From NCBI GenBank assembly GCA_027061855.1, contig JAMOVT010000080.1:1-64000 (forward strand): a DNA stretch of 64,000 nucleotides, in the 5' to 3' direction. Origin of the DNA: Flavobacteriales bacterium. Lineage in GTDB: Bacteria > Bacteroidota > Bacteroidia > Flavobacteriales > Flavobacteriaceae. The translations under genes were made by a program, and so were the position numbers. Below, piece after piece: positions 20,332 to 26,090 of this stretch (positions within the stretch are counted from its first letter, which is position 1; each line of letters begins with the position of its first letter). The notes below the pieces were generated by a model, which was not told the origin of the DNA, did not search any database, and saw nothing but the letters and a program-made list of their open reading frames with translations.

Positions 20332-20550
20332 ATGAAAAAACTAATCAGACTACTTTTCTACTTCAATTTAGCTCTTTTTTTCTATGGGGCTTATTTGCAA
20401 TATGTTGCTCATAATCCGGCTTATGCCAAAGTAATGGGCAGCGGAGTTTTGTTTCTGGTTTTTGTATTATTACCTCTTTTTTTATGGTACCGGTATAAGG
20501 ATAAGAAAATTGAAGATTTTCAATTTAAAAAACCTGAAAAGAAAGATTAA
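20332..20550 (+). CDS. Small two-helix membrane protein
   Basis: 72 residues with two hydrophobic segments (about 4-24 and 35-55), a positive YRYKDKK stretch after the second and a charged tail. It starts one base after the ClC gene stops and its stop overlaps the end of the convergent pabC-like gene. No family is recognised; the tight coupling suggests it is made with the ClC protein. Confidence 0.65.
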   Translation: MKKLIRLLFYFNLALFFYGAYLQYVAHNPAYAKVMGSGVLFLVFVLLPLFLWYRYKDKKIEDFQFKKPEKKD

Positions 20551-21134
20551 TAATAAATATTGGTCGCCGGAATTTCCTCTTGTTCTTCAAAATCGAGCAT
20601 GGCATTGATTAATTTAAAAGTCTTATAATTTTTGATGTCCTCAGGGCGAATTTCCTTTGCAAAAATTTTTTTTTCATAAAGCAATCTTTCTCTGGCGGTA
20701 CCTTTTAATAACGGATAAGCCGGTGTCACCCATTGTTTCCCGTCAAAAAAAACGATATTGGTAAAGGAGGTATCTGAAATTTGTTCGTTTTTGATAATCA
20801 AAATATCATCAGAACTTCCTTTCCTTTTTTGCAAATCCTCAATGGGTTGACGATTTACATATTTCAAACTGTACTCCAAATCATCAGCTGTGACCAATTG
20901 TAAACTATTTATTTTACGGGGAGTATAAGGCGAATATTGACAAAAACAATCTACTTCATTATATAAAAACCGCAATTTGACAATTCCTTTTTTAAATTCC
21001 TCCGGTACTTGAATTAACTGTTTCAAATCAAATGGGGCGGGTTTAAGATAATGAAGAAAAAAAGATTTTTCAAAACGCCATTGATGCCAATCAAGATATT
21101 GAGGAATTCCCTCTTTGATTTTAATGGTTTCCAT
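20547..21134 (-). CDS. Class IV aminotransferase, aminodeoxychorismate lyase-like
   Basis: Likely makes 4-aminobenzoate from aminodeoxychorismate for folate. 195 residues, shorter than typical PabC (about 270). The KYVNRQPIEDL stretch fits the PLP-lysine region and ISDTSFTNIVFFDG ... GTARERLL fits the conserved C-terminal half. ATG at 21134 (METIKIKEG) is chosen; it overlaps the end of pabB by 14 bases. Its partner pabB just upstream supports the role, but other class IV reactions remain possible. Confidence 0.8.
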   Translation of the reverse strand: METIKIKEGIPQYLDWHQWRFEKSFFLHYLKPAPFDLKQLIQVPEEFKKGIVKLRFLYNEVDCFCQYSPYTPRKINSLQLVTADDLEYSLKYVNRQPIEDLQKRKGSSDDILIIKNEQISDTSFTNIVFFDGKQWVTPAYPLLKGTARERLLYEKKIFAKEIRPEDIKNYKTFKLINAMLDFEEQEEIPATNIYY

Positions 21135-22104
21135 CAATGGGAACATATATTTTGTCAATAAGCTCATTGTATTCTGATTTTGGATTGCTTTGTGAAGTTA
21201 TACCTCCTCCGCTTCGATATATTTTAAAATTATTTCTCTCTTCGATAAAACGGATGTTCACTGCGGAATCGAGATTTTTACCGTCAAAAATACCAAAAAT
21301 CCCCGTATAATATCCCCGTTTATCTTTTTCTGCTTGTTGAATAATTTCAATCGTTTTTTCCTTGGGCGCCCCGGATATAGATCCCGCCGGAAGCAAAGTC
21401 AAAAGGATATTCCCAATATTTTCCTGCCAATTTTCAGGCAAATCTCCTTGTATTTCCGAACTCACTTGATAAAGATGCTTTCTGCTGGTCTTGATCTCCT
21501 GTATGTAACGAAATCGGCTCACCTGTACTTTTTCGGCGACCATTGACAAATCATTGCGTATTAAATCCACAATGGTATAATGCTCCCTTTTTTCTTTTTC
21601 ATCTTCCAGAATAATTTTTCTTGCATCGGAAATTGATGCATCTATCGTCCCTTTCATCGGAAAAGAATAAATTTTTCTGTCTGCTATTTTGATAAAACTT
21701 TCGGGAGAAAAACTGACAAATTTATTTTTAAAAAACAATTTATAGGGAGAAGAAGCAGCATAGAAAATTTGTTCCAAAGTATAATCCGTATTGATATATG
21801 CAGGAAAAGTAAGATTGACCAAATAGGAATTCCCGTAATTGATTTGCTGTTGAACAAAGTCAAATGATTTTTTGTACTCCTCATAAGTGACGGGGAATAT
21901 TTGGAAATCATTAATAAATCCCTGTTTAGTGGGAGTATAATTCCTAAAATTGGGCATTTTTAAAAGAATTAGGTGTTTTTGAAGTTCTTCCAAAGGACAA
22001 ACAAAAGGTGCTTCCTTTTCAAAATCGATAAGAAAGAAAAATGCTTTTCTCTCTTTTCCCCATTCATTTAAAATTTCTCTGAATTTATCAAGCTTTTGAT
22101 TCAT
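21121..22104 (-). CDS. pabB: Aminodeoxychorismate synthase component I
   Basis: Chorismate-binding enzyme of 327 residues, the short form lacking the N-terminal extension of anthranilate synthase. Conserved stretches: SFSPESFIKI, FPMKGTIDA, LIRNDLSMVAEKVQV, LPAGSISGAPKEKTIEII and the C-terminal RSGGGITSQSNPKSEYNE. With the class IV aminotransferase downstream it forms a p-aminobenzoate module; no glutamine amidotransferase subunit (pabA) is nearby. The start overlaps the end of the CPBP-RdgB gene by 17 bases. Confidence 0.92.
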   Translation of the reverse strand: MNQKLDKFREILNEWGKERKAFFFLIDFEKEAPFVCPLEELQKHLILLKMPNFRNYTPTKQGFINDFQIFPVTYEEYKKSFDFVQQQINYGNSYLVNLTFPAYINTDYTLEQIFYAASSPYKLFFKNKFVSFSPESFIKIADRKIYSFPMKGTIDASISDARKIILEDEKEKREHYTIVDLIRNDLSMVAEKVQVSRFRYIQEIKTSRKHLYQVSSEIQGDLPENWQENIGNILLTLLPAGSISGAPKEKTIEIIQQAEKDKRGYYTGIFGIFDGKNLDSAVNIRFIEERNNFKIYRSGGGITSQSNPKSEYNELIDKIYVPIDGNH

Positions 22105-23482
22105 CCAAATATTTTTTCAATTTCTTTAAGGCTTCCGCTCTATGGCTGATTTTATTTTTTTCTTCTTGTGTCATTTCGGCGAAAGTTTTATCATAGCCCT
22201 CGGGAATAAAAACAGAATCATAACCGAATCCTCTTTCTCCTCGGGGTTCATTGGCAATCGTTCCTTTTATTTCTCCTTCAAATACTATTTCTTTTGGTCC
22301 GTCACTGAGGGCTATAAGCGTTCGAAAACGGGCATTACGATTTTCTTTTCCCTCCATTTCTTTTAATAATTTCTCGACATTATCCCGGTAAGAGGCGTTT
22401 TCTCCTGCATATCGTGCACTGTAAACACCGGGAGCTCCTTGTAGGCTCTCCACTTCAAGACCGGTATCGTCTGCCATTACATTGACATCATAAGGATATG
22501 CAATTTGACGCATTTTTTGCAAAGCATTTTCTTCCAAAGTTTTTCCCGTTTCCTTCAATTCTGTTTTATGCCCCAAAGCTTTTAAATCTTTCAAACGGAT
22601 GTTTTTCGGCAAGATTTTCTCTATTTCTTGTATTTTATGCGGATTTCCGGTAGCCACAATCCATTCCTTCGGCGTGTGAGAAAAATATTTTTCAAAATAA
22701 TTATATAAGAAATAGATAATAAAAAGACTGAAAAGGCTTAATAAGATCATTCCTTTTATTTCCTGATGAGTGAGTGTTTCCGTTAAATTTTCCGAAGGAT
22801 CTTGAAATTGTCCGGCGATAAAGGCCGTACTGTTTAATAACCAATGGATTAAAATAGGATAAAAAAGACTTCCCGTTTTCCAATAAATATAACCCAAATA
22901 GATTCCCAGTACCGTAGCATATAGAAATTGCCAAGGATTGAGATGAAAAACCCCAAATACCACTGCCGAAATCAAAATGGCTTTCCAAGGACTATATTTT
23001 TTCAGAAGGGCTTTTAGAATGATTCCTCTAAAAAGCCATTCTTCCAAAATAGGTGCAGCTACGGCAATCATAAGATATCCGGAAATTTTATCGTTAAAAA
23101 TGGCTTTCATCGCTTCATTTAGTTCATCAAAAATCGTTTTAAAAATTCCCGAAGGTTCAGGCAAAAGTAAAACCGTTGATTCACCTACCACTAAAAAAGC
23201 AAAAGCTCCGATCACGATAAAAGGAAACAAATTCTTGTGTTGAAAAGAGAAACTTGGGAATCCTTCCCGGCCAAAGGTTTTCCTTGTAGCCCAAATGGTA
23301 AGAATCATTGGAAAAACATAGGAAAGCAACATTCCAAAAGTTTTGAATCGAGCCGGAAAATGGCTCACCAACAAAGAAAATGGAATGGAAAAAAGAATGA
23401 AATAGGCAATAATAGCCACAAAATGAATAAATTTCGGAAAATTTCTTTTGGATGGTATTTCTTTATAATAATTACTATTCAT
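22088..23482 (-). CDS. Fusion of CPBP (CAAX-type) membrane protease and RdgB/HAM1 XTP/dITP diphosphatase
   Basis: 464 residues in one uninterrupted frame. Residues 1 to about 272 are a multi-helix CPBP-family protease with all three motifs: EEWLFR (EExxxR), FGVFH (FxxxH) and HWLLN (HxxxN). Residues 273-464 (192, the normal RdgB length) are a complete RdgB: ATGNPHK, ADDTGLEVESLQGAPGVYSA, GFGYDSVFIPEG and SHRAEAL. The linker is FEKYFSHTPK, directly after the last membrane helix, with no start codon near the RdgB boundary. This would place a house-cleaning nucleotidase on the cytosolic face of the membrane. A lost stop codon or an assembly error is the alternative. It overlaps both rlmH (8 bases) and pabB. 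Confidence 0.9.
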   Translation of the reverse strand: MNSNYYKEIPSKRNFPKFIHFVAIIAYFILFSIPFSLLVSHFPARFKTFGMLLSYVFPMILTIWATRKTFGREGFPSFSFQHKNLFPFIVIGAFAFLVVGESTVLLLPEPSGIFKTIFDELNEAMKAIFNDKISGYLMIAVAAPILEEWLFRGIILKALLKKYSPWKAILISAVVFGVFHLNPWQFLYATVLGIYLGYIYWKTGSLFYPILIHWLLNSTAFIAGQFQDPSENLTETLTHQEIKGMILLSLFSLFIIYFLYNYFEKYFSHTPKEWIVATGNPHKIQEIEKILPKNIRLKDLKALGHKTELKETGKTLEENALQKMRQIAYPYDVNVMADDTGLEVESLQGAPGVYSARYAGENASYRDNVEKLLKEMEGKENRNARFRTLIALSDGPKEIVFEGEIKGTIANEPRGERGFGYDSVFIPEGYDKTFAEMTQEEKNKISHRAEALKKLKKYLDESKA

Positions 23483-23948
23483 GATGATAAGGATGATGAT
23501 TTATAATGGTAAATGCGCGATATAATTGTTCTGCAAATATAAGCCTTATCAATTGATGAGAAAAGGTCATTTTTGACAAGGCGATTTTTTGATTTGCACG
23601 TGCATAAACTTCATCCGAGAAACCATAAGGTCCGCCGATTATAAAAAGCAAATTTTTCAATCCGCTATTCATACGCTTTTGTAAATAACCCGCAAATTCC
23701 ACTGAAGTAAATTCTTTTCCTTTTTCGTCCAATAAAATAACAAAATCATTTTTCTCGATCTTATTCAAAATAAGCTTGGCTTCTTTATCTTTTTGTTCAG
23801 TAGCCGATAATTTTTTAGCATTTTTTATATCCGGTATAATAATTTCTTCAAAAGAAACAAAGGAATGAAGACGTTTGTAATATTTATTTATGAGTTGTTC
23901 CAAACATTTCTCATCTGTTTTTCCAACTACTATCAATTTAATTTTCAT
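23475..23948 (-). CDS. rlmH: 23S rRNA pseudouridine-1915 N3-methyltransferase
   Basis: SPOUT methyltransferase modifying helix 69 of 23S rRNA. 157 residues, the family length. Motifs: MKIKLIVVGKTDEKCL at the start, FVILLDEKGKEFTS, FIIGGPYGFSDEVYARA (SAM knot), and the C-terminal SHQLIRLIFAEQLYRAFTIINHHPYHH. ATG 23948 matches the conserved N-terminus; the in-frame start six codons upstream does not. It heads the minus-strand group rlmH, CPBP-rdgB, pabB, pabC, all overlapping by 8-17 bases. Confidence 0.96.
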   Translation of the reverse strand: MKIKLIVVGKTDEKCLEQLINKYYKRLHSFVSFEEIIIPDIKNAKKLSATEQKDKEAKLILNKIEKNDFVILLDEKGKEFTSVEFAGYLQKRMNSGLKNLLFIIGGPYGFSDEVYARANQKIALSKMTFSHQLIRLIFAEQLYRAFTIINHHPYHHE

Positions 23949-24204: not shown

Positions 24205-24843
24205 ATGAAAAGAATAGAGCGACCCACTCCGGTAAATGAGGAGATTAAACTCAACCCGATGCGGACTATAATGAGTAAAACCGATGCAAAAGGTATAATA
24301 GAATATGCCAATGATTATTTCATGGAAATCTCGGGCTATAAAGAATGGGAATTGATGGGGCAACCTCATAATGTCATTCGGCATCCGGATATGCCCAAAA
24401 GTATATTCAAAATATTATGGGATCGAATTAATCAAGGGATGCCCACTTATGCTTTGGTTAAAAACTTGGCCAAAGACGGCCGTTATTATTGGGTAATTGC
24501 TTACTTCATTCCCGTCAGCAAAGAAGGAAAAATTATCAATCACTATGCTAAACGAAAAGCTATACCTGACGAGATAAAGGATGAAATCACCAGTTTATAC
24601 AATATGTTGCTTGAACTGGAAAAAACAGGGGGTATGGAAGCGGCCGAAGCCTATTTCTTATCTTATCTGGAGGAGCAAAAAATGTCTTATGACGAATTTA
24701 TTTTCGATACAATGCGCTTATCTGAAAAAGAGTTGAAAAAATATATGGATGCCCAAATAACCGATGAAAGTTTAGGGCTGGATATGAGTGCGGAAGAAGC
24801 AATTAAAAATAGTGTTAAAAAGAAAAGAAGATTTTTTTGGTAG
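24205..24843 (+). CDS. Aer-type PAS protein 1 (single-domain)
   Basis: 212 residues. Residues about 20-110 are a PAS domain very like the flavin-binding PAS of the aerotaxis receptor Aer: GQPHNVIRHPDMP (R59, H60, D62) and LVKNLAKDGRYYWV. Residues 115-165 are helical (DEIKDEITSLYNMLLELE, GGMEAAEAYFLSYLEEQ). The C-terminus is KKKRRFFW. There is no signalling, kinase or methyl-accepting domain and no chemotaxis gene near. Likely a soluble redox or oxygen sensor module with an unknown partner. First of three paralogues read as one unit. Confidence 0.85.
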   Translation: MKRIERPTPVNEEIKLNPMRTIMSKTDAKGIIEYANDYFMEISGYKEWELMGQPHNVIRHPDMPKSIFKILWDRINQGMPTYALVKNLAKDGRYYWVIAYFIPVSKEGKIINHYAKRKAIPDEIKDEITSLYNMLLELEKTGGMEAAEAYFLSYLEEQKMSYDEFIFDTMRLSEKELKKYMDAQITDESLGLDMSAEEAIKNSVKKKRRFFW

Positions 24844-24848
24844 AAATT

Positions 24849-25475
24849 ATGTTTGAAATAGAAAAAATAATAGAACCGGATATTACGCTTGTATGTAAGT
24901 TAAATAATGATGGGAGTATTGGCTTTATCAACAAAGCTTATACGGATATAACAGGTTTTTCCGAAAAAGATCTTACAGGCGAAAGCCATGAAATTATCCA
25001 ACACCCGAAAATGCCCAAAACCATATTGGAACAGGTATGGAAAAATATCCATACTAATGAAAAATCCTATATTATAGGAAAAAATATCACCAAAAACGGT
25101 GAATATTTTTGGACGGTTGCCGATATTACCAATCGACTTGGTCAATCTAAAAATCCCGGAATTTTTATTCGTAAAAAATATTTGCCCTCCAATATCAAAG
25201 ACGAAATTGCAAAATTATATGAAATTCTTTACGGAATAGAAAATAGCGGAGGAATGGAGATTGCCGAAAAATATTTAAAGGGTTGGCTGGAAGAAAGAAA
25301 CAGTAAGTCTTTTGAAGAATATATTTTCAATCAATTCGGCGGTGAAAAAAATTTGAAGAAATATCTTACAACCGAAGTAAATGACAAAGAATTATTCTCT
25401 ACGGACCCCTCTTCTATGAATATTGATGAAATAATGGAATTTGTTAAAAAGAAAAAAAGAAGAAGATTCTGGTAA
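24849..25475 (+). CDS. Aer-type PAS protein 2 (single-domain paralogue)
   Basis: 208 residues, same layout as its upstream paralogue: PAS domain, helical segment (IKDEIAKLYEILYGIE, GGMEIAEKYLKGWLEE) and basic-aromatic tail KKKKRRRFW. The flavin-site motif is altered: IIQHPKMP (Q51, K54) replaces IRHPDMP, so flavin binding may be weakened or changed. KNGEYFWTV is kept. The ATG lies 5 bases after the stop of PAS 1; an upstream in-frame TTG would overlap that gene. Confidence 0.83.
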   Translation: MFEIEKIIEPDITLVCKLNNDGSIGFINKAYTDITGFSEKDLTGESHEIIQHPKMPKTILEQVWKNIHTNEKSYIIGKNITKNGEYFWTVADITNRLGQSKNPGIFIRKKYLPSNIKDEIAKLYEILYGIENSGGMEIAEKYLKGWLEERNSKSFEEYIFNQFGGEKNLKKYLTTEVNDKELFSTDPSSMNIDEIMEFVKKKKRRRFW

Positions 25476-25493
25476 AAAATATAAATATTAATT

Positions 25494-26090
25494 ATGACTA
25501 TAAATAAAACTTCTATGGCTAAAAACAAAAAATGTAATTCATTAGATCCGGCCAGAAAATTTAAATTCAAAGTAGATTTGGAAGGGAAAATTCAATTTTT
25601 CAATTCTTATTTTACTGAATTCACCGGCTACTCCATTACCGAATTAATTTTGAAAGATTTTTCAAAATTATTTGAGGAAGATATGCCCAAATTAAGTATG
25701 GATGTTTTGATAAATGAAATCGAAAAGAACCCGAAGGCCTTTTTTGCCTATAAAGGTAAAACAAAGGACGGAGGATGTTATTGGGGCTTGCTTCGCTCCT
25801 CTCAAAGGCTTTCAAATAACGAAATTATAGGCTATGATTTGGAAGTGAAATTACTTCCTCAAAACTCAGTGAAAGCCTTTGAAAATTTATATTCGATTAT
25901 TCATGAAATCGAAAAAAATGCAGGCAAAAAAGCCGGTGAAAAATATTTGGAAGGCTTCCTTGAAGAAAAAAACAAGACTTTTAAGGATTTTGTTTTGGAA
26001 GCTATTGAAATCAATGAAAAAAAAGCTGACAAATATTTTGAAATCGACGAAGATGAAAAACCAAAAAAGAAAAAAAAGTCTTGGTTTTAA
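25494..26090 (+). CDS. Aer-type PAS protein 3 (diverged paralogue)
   Basis: 198 residues. The PAS fold is still visible (FFNSYFTEFTGYSITEL, KTKDGGCYWGLLR), but the RHPDMP motif has become FEEDMP, so the Aer flavin site is probably lost. The helical segment (AFENLYSIIHEIEKNAGKKAGEKY) and the tail KKKKKSWF remain. An internal ATG at codon 8 (MAKNKK) is an alternative start. It converges with and overlaps the ABC ATPase gene by 4 bases. Confidence 0.8.
   Translation: MTINKTSMAKNKKCNSLDPARKFKFKVDLEGKIQFFNSYFTEFTGYSITELILKDFSKLFEEDMPKLSMDVLINEIEKNPKAFFAYKGKTKDGGCYWGLLRSSQRLSNNEIIGYDLEVKLLPQNSVKAFENLYSIIHEIEKNAGKKAGEKYLEGFLEEKNKTFKDFVLEAIEINEKKADKYFEIDEDEKPKKKKKSWF

Follow-up and report, generated by a model that had tools for sequence, protein, structure and literature searches.

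RdgB, a house-cleaning enzyme, is nearly universal, and for most bacterial CPBP proteases we know of no role. Both are found on one reading frame in the stretch of 64,000 nucleotides from a Flavobacteriales bacterium (assembly GCA_027061855.1, contig JAMOVT010000080.1) that was analysed here as a whole and is referred to as the window. This raises the question of whether the two are truly one protein, how such a protein arose, and whether the joining serves a purpose. The frame and its parts are located as follows.

22088..23482, minus strand: CPBP-RdgB fusion coding sequence, 464 aa, ATG start, stop codon included (open reading frame and Pfam; same frame in 18 further genomes)
22682..23482, minus strand: CPBP/Rce1-like membrane domain, residues 1-267, eight predicted helices (PF02517; model helices; structural matches 4cad and 6u0o)
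23027..23044, minus strand: EExxxR catalytic motif, E147, E148 and R152 (invariant 19/19)
22943..22957, minus strand: FGVFH motif, residues 176-180 with H180 (F176, F179 and H180 invariant 19/19)
22832..22846, minus strand: HxxxN motif, residues 213-217 (H213 and N217 invariant 19/19)
22670..22681, minus strand: linker, residues 268-271, without ATG, GTG or TTG (structure model; codon check)
22091..22669, minus strand: RdgB/HAM1 domain, residues 272-464 (PF01725; TIGR00042; fold Z 25-27 to solved RdgB/Ham1)
22634..22654, minus strand: nucleotide-site motif ATGNPHK, residues 277-283 (A277, N280, H282 and K283 invariant in the 19-protein alignment)
22451..22471, minus strand: RdgB motif DDTGLEV, residues 338-344 (D338-E343 invariant, V344 nearly so)

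The in-frame fusion of CPBP and RdgB is confirmed. The first-pass annotation had described a single 464-codon frame at 22088-23482, and its coordinates, strand and length are all correct; the frame carries two complete domains, a CPBP/Rce1-like one in residues 1-267 and an RdgB/HAM1 one in residues 272-464. PF02517 is matched at residues 134-218 with 92.6 bits (cut-off 22.4, E 1.9e-26), and Ham1 PF01725 is matched over its full length at residues 275-458 with 236.3 bits (cut-off 22.5, E 3e-70), together with TIGR00042 at 205.6 bits against a cut-off of 145.35. The motifs named at first reading, EEWLFR, FGVFH and HWLLN, were recovered from the CPBP half, and the full-length RdgB contains ATGNPHK, ADDTGLEV, GFGYDSVF and SHR. 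Neither a stop codon nor a frameshift was found at the junction, and close relatives share the same fusion instead of carrying two separate genes. A second rdgB was sought in the genome of the window (a draft of 117 contigs, 95% complete) and none was found, the fused copy being its sole HAM1 match.

A search for other proteins of CPBP plus HAM1 architecture returned further examples, and the fusion frame is present across three genera in 20 of 25 genomes, namely 3/3 in the window's genus, 10/13 in genus g129 and 7/9 in genus g209. The junction is covered in 19 of these 20 carriers, the remaining one (G100) having both pieces on two contigs, and the fused proteins of the 18 further genomes show 37-63% protein identity. 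Each of the genomes of loci L036-L040 holds one HAM1 copy, contig ends break the fusion gene in those of L041 and L042, and in five drafts of 68-96% completeness (G414, G415, G416, G418, G423) no RdgB piece, fused or free, was detected. The named records among the fusion loci are Flavobacteriaceae or Flavobacteriales MAGs. In the family sample of 397 genomes, frames longer than 400 aa among the matches listed were those of the window's genome, G140 and G383, G101 being known besides, and all 29 other RdgB loci retrieved (L003-L031) from 100 family genomes, the window's included, are unfused. At the phylum level 2 of 395 genomes passed a threshold that detects same-frame cases only, and no fusion beyond that of the window was found, the other match being a 221 aa RdgB frame without CPBP. 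In two genomes of genus g188 (G199 and G369; 1.2 Mb; 95% and 92% complete) no HAM1 match was obtained, which may indicate a loss of rdgB.

In the alignment of 19 fused proteins the CPBP residues E147, E148, R152, H180, H213 and N217 are present in every row, and in the structure model EExxxR lies in helix 132-159 and HxxxN in helix 207-226; roles for the two motifs in the CPBP family are given in PMC11980579. In structure comparison the CPBP half matched SpdC (6u0o; Z 13.0, rmsd 4.1, 205 residues) and MmRce1 (4cad; Z 11.2, rmsd 5.1, 195 residues), and since helical folds can give middling Z values, the PF02517 sequence match carries most weight. According to its motifs the CPBP half is probably an active intramembrane protease; the intact motifs do not by themselves prove catalysis, and some CPBP proteins act without proteolysis. 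Of 12 genomes searched for PF02517, four (G101, G410, G424 and G419) contain no match other than the fused CPBP; the window's genome has a second one.

The RdgB half is equally complete. Residues N280, K283, E311, D338 and D339 are invariant in 19/19 fused proteins and S446, H447 and R448 nearly so (L041 is truncated by the contig end), these motif residues having roles in the RdgB active site, and the fold resembles solved Ham1/RdgB structures (e.g., 4bnq and 2q16) with Z 25-27, up to 26.8. In six pairs of genes dN/dS was 0.049-0.338 for CPBP and 0.093-0.251 for RdgB, where the highest values come from the closest pair and several dS values are near saturation. Purifying selection acts on both halves, and the view that both keep their catalytic motifs and are not decaying is borne out by the 19-protein alignment and by dN/dS. 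A chance fusion is excluded because 18 further genomes share the frame, their proteins being 37-63% identical, with dN/dS of 0.05-0.34 in both halves.

The AlphaFold2 model of the fusion, built on a 49-row alignment, has pLDDT 93.9 and pTM 0.89, with pLDDT 95-96 in the junction blocks 261-280, and among the matches listed no PDB chain spans both halves. The linker, at first put at about ten residues, is shorter in the model, where residue 267 closes the last CPBP helix and residue 272 opens strand 1 of RdgB, leaving about four residues. Hydropathy of the window protein gives seven clear helices, to which the model adds one more. Clusters of basic residues occupy the N-terminus, loops 67-88 and 156-168, and the part C-terminal of the last helix, and loop 225-241 is acidic; from this pattern RdgB is predicted to lie on the cytosolic face of the membrane. 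The earlier suggestion that RdgB is tethered to the membrane is supported by the model.

The loss of a separate RdgB start was judged from 87 unfused rdgB genes fetched, in all of which an ATG stands 2-14 codons ahead of the first nucleotide-site motif, and this interval was taken as the native start zone. In the window no ATG, GTG or TTG occurs in the 13 codons of this zone, in agreement with the initial remark that a start codon is lacking near the junction. ATG is missing from the zone in 16/19 fused genes, and all three start codons are missing in 10/19, the window among them. In 9/19 some ATG, GTG or TTG is still there, including three genes (L135, L136 and L138) with an ATG retained 10-11 codons before the RdgB motif, so in these nine free RdgB may be made by internal initiation.

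The neighbouring genes place the fusion in an ordinary setting.

23475..23948, minus strand: rlmH, its end overlapping the fusion start by 8 bases (NF000990 over cut-off, family match from an internal Met)
21121..22104, minus strand: pabB-like aminodeoxychorismate synthase component I, its start overlapping the fusion end by 17 bases (NF005486 over cut-off)
20547..21167, minus strand: class-IV aminotransferase (pabC-like), overlapping pabB by 47 bases

The overlaps of 8, 17 and 47 bases put the fusion inside a tight housekeeping operon. At L039 a DUF481 protein and a class-I glutamine amidotransferase stand between the fusion and pabB, and at L040 genes of the same sizes occupy the same place; the window has neither there. 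Further along the window, at 24205-26087, three small proteins of about 200 aa each lie in tandem, the first and third with a PAS domain (Pfam) and the second resembling the first, and in the relative L041 the corresponding position holds four genes of this kind. A mobile or viral origin of the fusion was considered and rejected, as phage DNA, viral contigs, phage records and plasmids were all without an adequate match: there was no DNA match to phages, no relative by peptide patterns among viral contigs, and none of 43 matching phage records covered 80% of the query, while plasmid matches, obtained with the CPBP part alone as query, stayed below 60% identity.

The origin of the fusion was traced in the window's family (f1) and in a second family of the same order (f5). 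Where f1 genomes have the genes unfused, rdgB often follows directly after rlmH; counted by eye, the distance from the rlmH end to the RdgB match is no more than about 30 bases in 9/29 loci. Outside the three genera no CPBP was found within about 1.4 kb upstream of unfused f1 rdgB (0/29 loci), nor upstream of rdgB in 23 other order- or phylum-level loci (for L159, 46 bases only), with a CPBP model built from the fused set, which divergent CPBPs may escape. From the 0/29 count it follows that pairing of CPBP with rdgB is not needed generally.

In f5 a strong two-domain match was obtained in 24/197 genomes, of which 23 consist of two in-frame genes separated by a stop and one is a single frame (L143:1315-2778, 488 aa) with both Pfam domains and no start codon near the junction, in a genome with five other CPBP matches. 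As this search favours same-frame cases, 20 listed genomes of the 173 non-matching ones were examined for neighbours; rdgB was found in 19 of the 20, and in 17 of these 19 a CPBP gene immediately precedes rdgB in the same orientation. Measured from the CPBP stop, the RdgB ATG of these f5 pairs stands at -35 to +240 bases, and some of the genes overlap. Among the f5 loci examined, L191 is the same place as L048 on a public contig, where ten N fall exactly at the CPBP/rdgB junction (L048:5614-5623) and make the fused or separate state indeterminable. A CPBP-rdgB pair is also present in G425 of family f2.

In two trees each, RdgB groups the f1 fusions as one clade (support 90 and 100), as does CPBP (94 and 98), and L143 is placed among the f5 pairs for CPBP (97) and within f5 for RdgB (97). 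When f1 and f5 fusions were constrained together, in groups named after earlier trees had been viewed, the AU test gave p 0.037 for CPBP and p 0.073 for RdgB, so a single origin of both is disfavoured by the former and not formally rejected by the latter, which is not significant; one clade for f1 and f5 CPBPs, meaning a shared rdgB-linked origin, had AU p 0.57. By these trees the f1 gene goes back to one old fusion that three genera have kept, and L143 is probably a second, independent fusion in f5. The clade of f1 fusions, the pair in 17/19 f5 loci and the L143 fusion together indicate that the f1 fusion derives from, or parallels, a conserved CPBP-rdgB gene pair.

The explanation that we consider likely is a bona fide bifunctional inner-membrane protein, in which a CPBP protease domain anchors the only RdgB of the cell on the cytosolic side. 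CPBP would have been joined to rdgB within an rlmH-headed operon in the ancestor of the three genera, with loss of the separate RdgB start. The N-terminal CPBP domain with its intact active site would hold RdgB by way of its final helix and the short linker (about four residues), and the anchored RdgB should hydrolyse dITP, ITP and XTP to monophosphates as usual, at the cytosolic face of the membrane. Both activities would persist, and tethering or a fixed 1:1 ratio may serve a shared process, probably membrane-protein upkeep coupled to growth. We infer that the adjacency of RdgB and protease is functional in purpose.

The main rival, which remains strong and to which we give somewhat less than an even chance, is a neutral fusion, where co-translated neighbours lost the intervening stop, the halves work independently and RdgB merely tolerates an N-terminal anchor. 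Few mutations would be needed, given an RdgB ATG at -35 to +240 bases from the CPBP stop in f5 and some overlaps, and only one of the 24 same-frame hits in 197 f5 genomes is fused. Moreover, membrane domains of unrelated kinds precede RdgB within a single frame: YitT+DUF2179+Ham1 frames of about 495-497 codons (Pfam for L044) occur at L044:4086-5570 and L045:500-1984 in Prevotellaceae and Bacteroidaceae MAGs (Bacteroidales), the junction containing two internal ATGs, and in the f1 genus g128 a DUF2809 membrane domain precedes RdgB in one 320-codon frame (L154:1387-2346; Pfam). The YitT, DUF2809 and CPBP cases show a recurrent membrane-protein-RdgB pattern, and since RdgB evidently tolerates such neighbours, the step from fusion to shared function is weakened. 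However, with an ATG still present where native RdgB starts, the L044, L045 and L154 frames could also yield free RdgB and thus need not be obligate fusions, whereas the CPBP fusion has lost its native start and is kept across three genera at 37-63% identity, and CPBP-rdgB adjacency in 17/19 f5 loci is above the expectation from gene-order drift.

It is improbable that RdgB regulates the protease, that is, that non-canonical purine nucleotides such as dITP or XTP bind or turn over in RdgB, switch CPBP proteolysis and report pool damage at the membrane. By analogy this would be a stress or immune sensor-effector like Kongming KomB-KomC, where, according to PMC12948488, KomB binds dITP and activates KomC, which depletes NAD+; a gate of this kind, also improbable, would make the f5 gene pair the two-protein form of the same device. 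The RdgB fold is the same as that of KomB (8zsg, Z 21.4), the pTM of 0.89 extends across both domains over a very short linker, and the gene pairing is conserved. Against this, the catalytic residues of RdgB are intact and the signal should be destroyed, and a sole HAM1 inherited in one clade within a housekeeping operon (rlmH, pabB, pabC-like) is unlike a defence island; no extra HAM1 copy was found in a mobile or defence context, the sole one adjoining rlmH and pabB. A defence system was rejected, none of the PADLOC families (2023 library) matching the fusion.

A slightly smaller chance is left to self-release, in which the CPBP domain or another protease would cut the junction and yield soluble RdgB; a protease domain does stand four residues from its fused partner, but the linker is short, the model is of high confidence there (261-280, pLDDT 95-96) and the alignment has no shared motif. 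An assembly or frame artefact, conceivable in a draft of 117 contigs, is rejected as next to impossible because the junction is in one frame in 18 other assemblies.

In summary, the CPBP-RdgB fusion is a new architecture of known families, and in the open-licence literature searched there was no report of RdgB/ITPase fused to, or paired with, a CPBP intramembrane protease. It suggests that cells can manage with a sole RdgB that is membrane-bound, and the fusion together with the side-by-side genes of relatives suggests, at the level of gene order and sequence, that the two jobs may belong together. Fusion throughout a clade, conservation of the gene pair and a second, probable fusion offer a concrete starting point for the idea that a CPBP protease works jointly with nucleotide-pool cleaning, which is testable with one gene.

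Among known systems, KomB of Kongming shares the HAM1 fold with the fused RdgB (Z 21.4 to 8zsg) and differs as a dITP sensor with a KomC partner, the fusion being without such a partner and without a PADLOC match. The YitT-DUF2179-RdgB and DUF2809-RdgB frames likewise put a multi-pass membrane protein before RdgB, but their membrane domains are unrelated to CPBP and the native RdgB ATG is kept. In the NF041647 ABC permease/CPBP fusion a CPBP domain is also joined to another protein; unlike the CPBP-RdgB fusion its CPBP is C-terminal and the partner is a permease, and the fusion protein, matching NF041647 at residues 12-224 with 111.7 bits, far under the cut-off of 435, is not a member. With the RdgB/HAM1 family (ITPase, XTP/dITP diphosphatase) the fused RdgB has in common the complete domain and all motifs, whereas unfused rdgB controls have their own start in 87/87 cases and the fused RdgB stands C-terminal to a membrane protease without one. 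Rce1-type glutamic proteases (PF02517) share EExxxR, FxxxH, HxxxN and the fold with the fused CPBP half, which differs from other CPBP/Rce1 proteases in bearing a soluble enzyme at its C-terminus.
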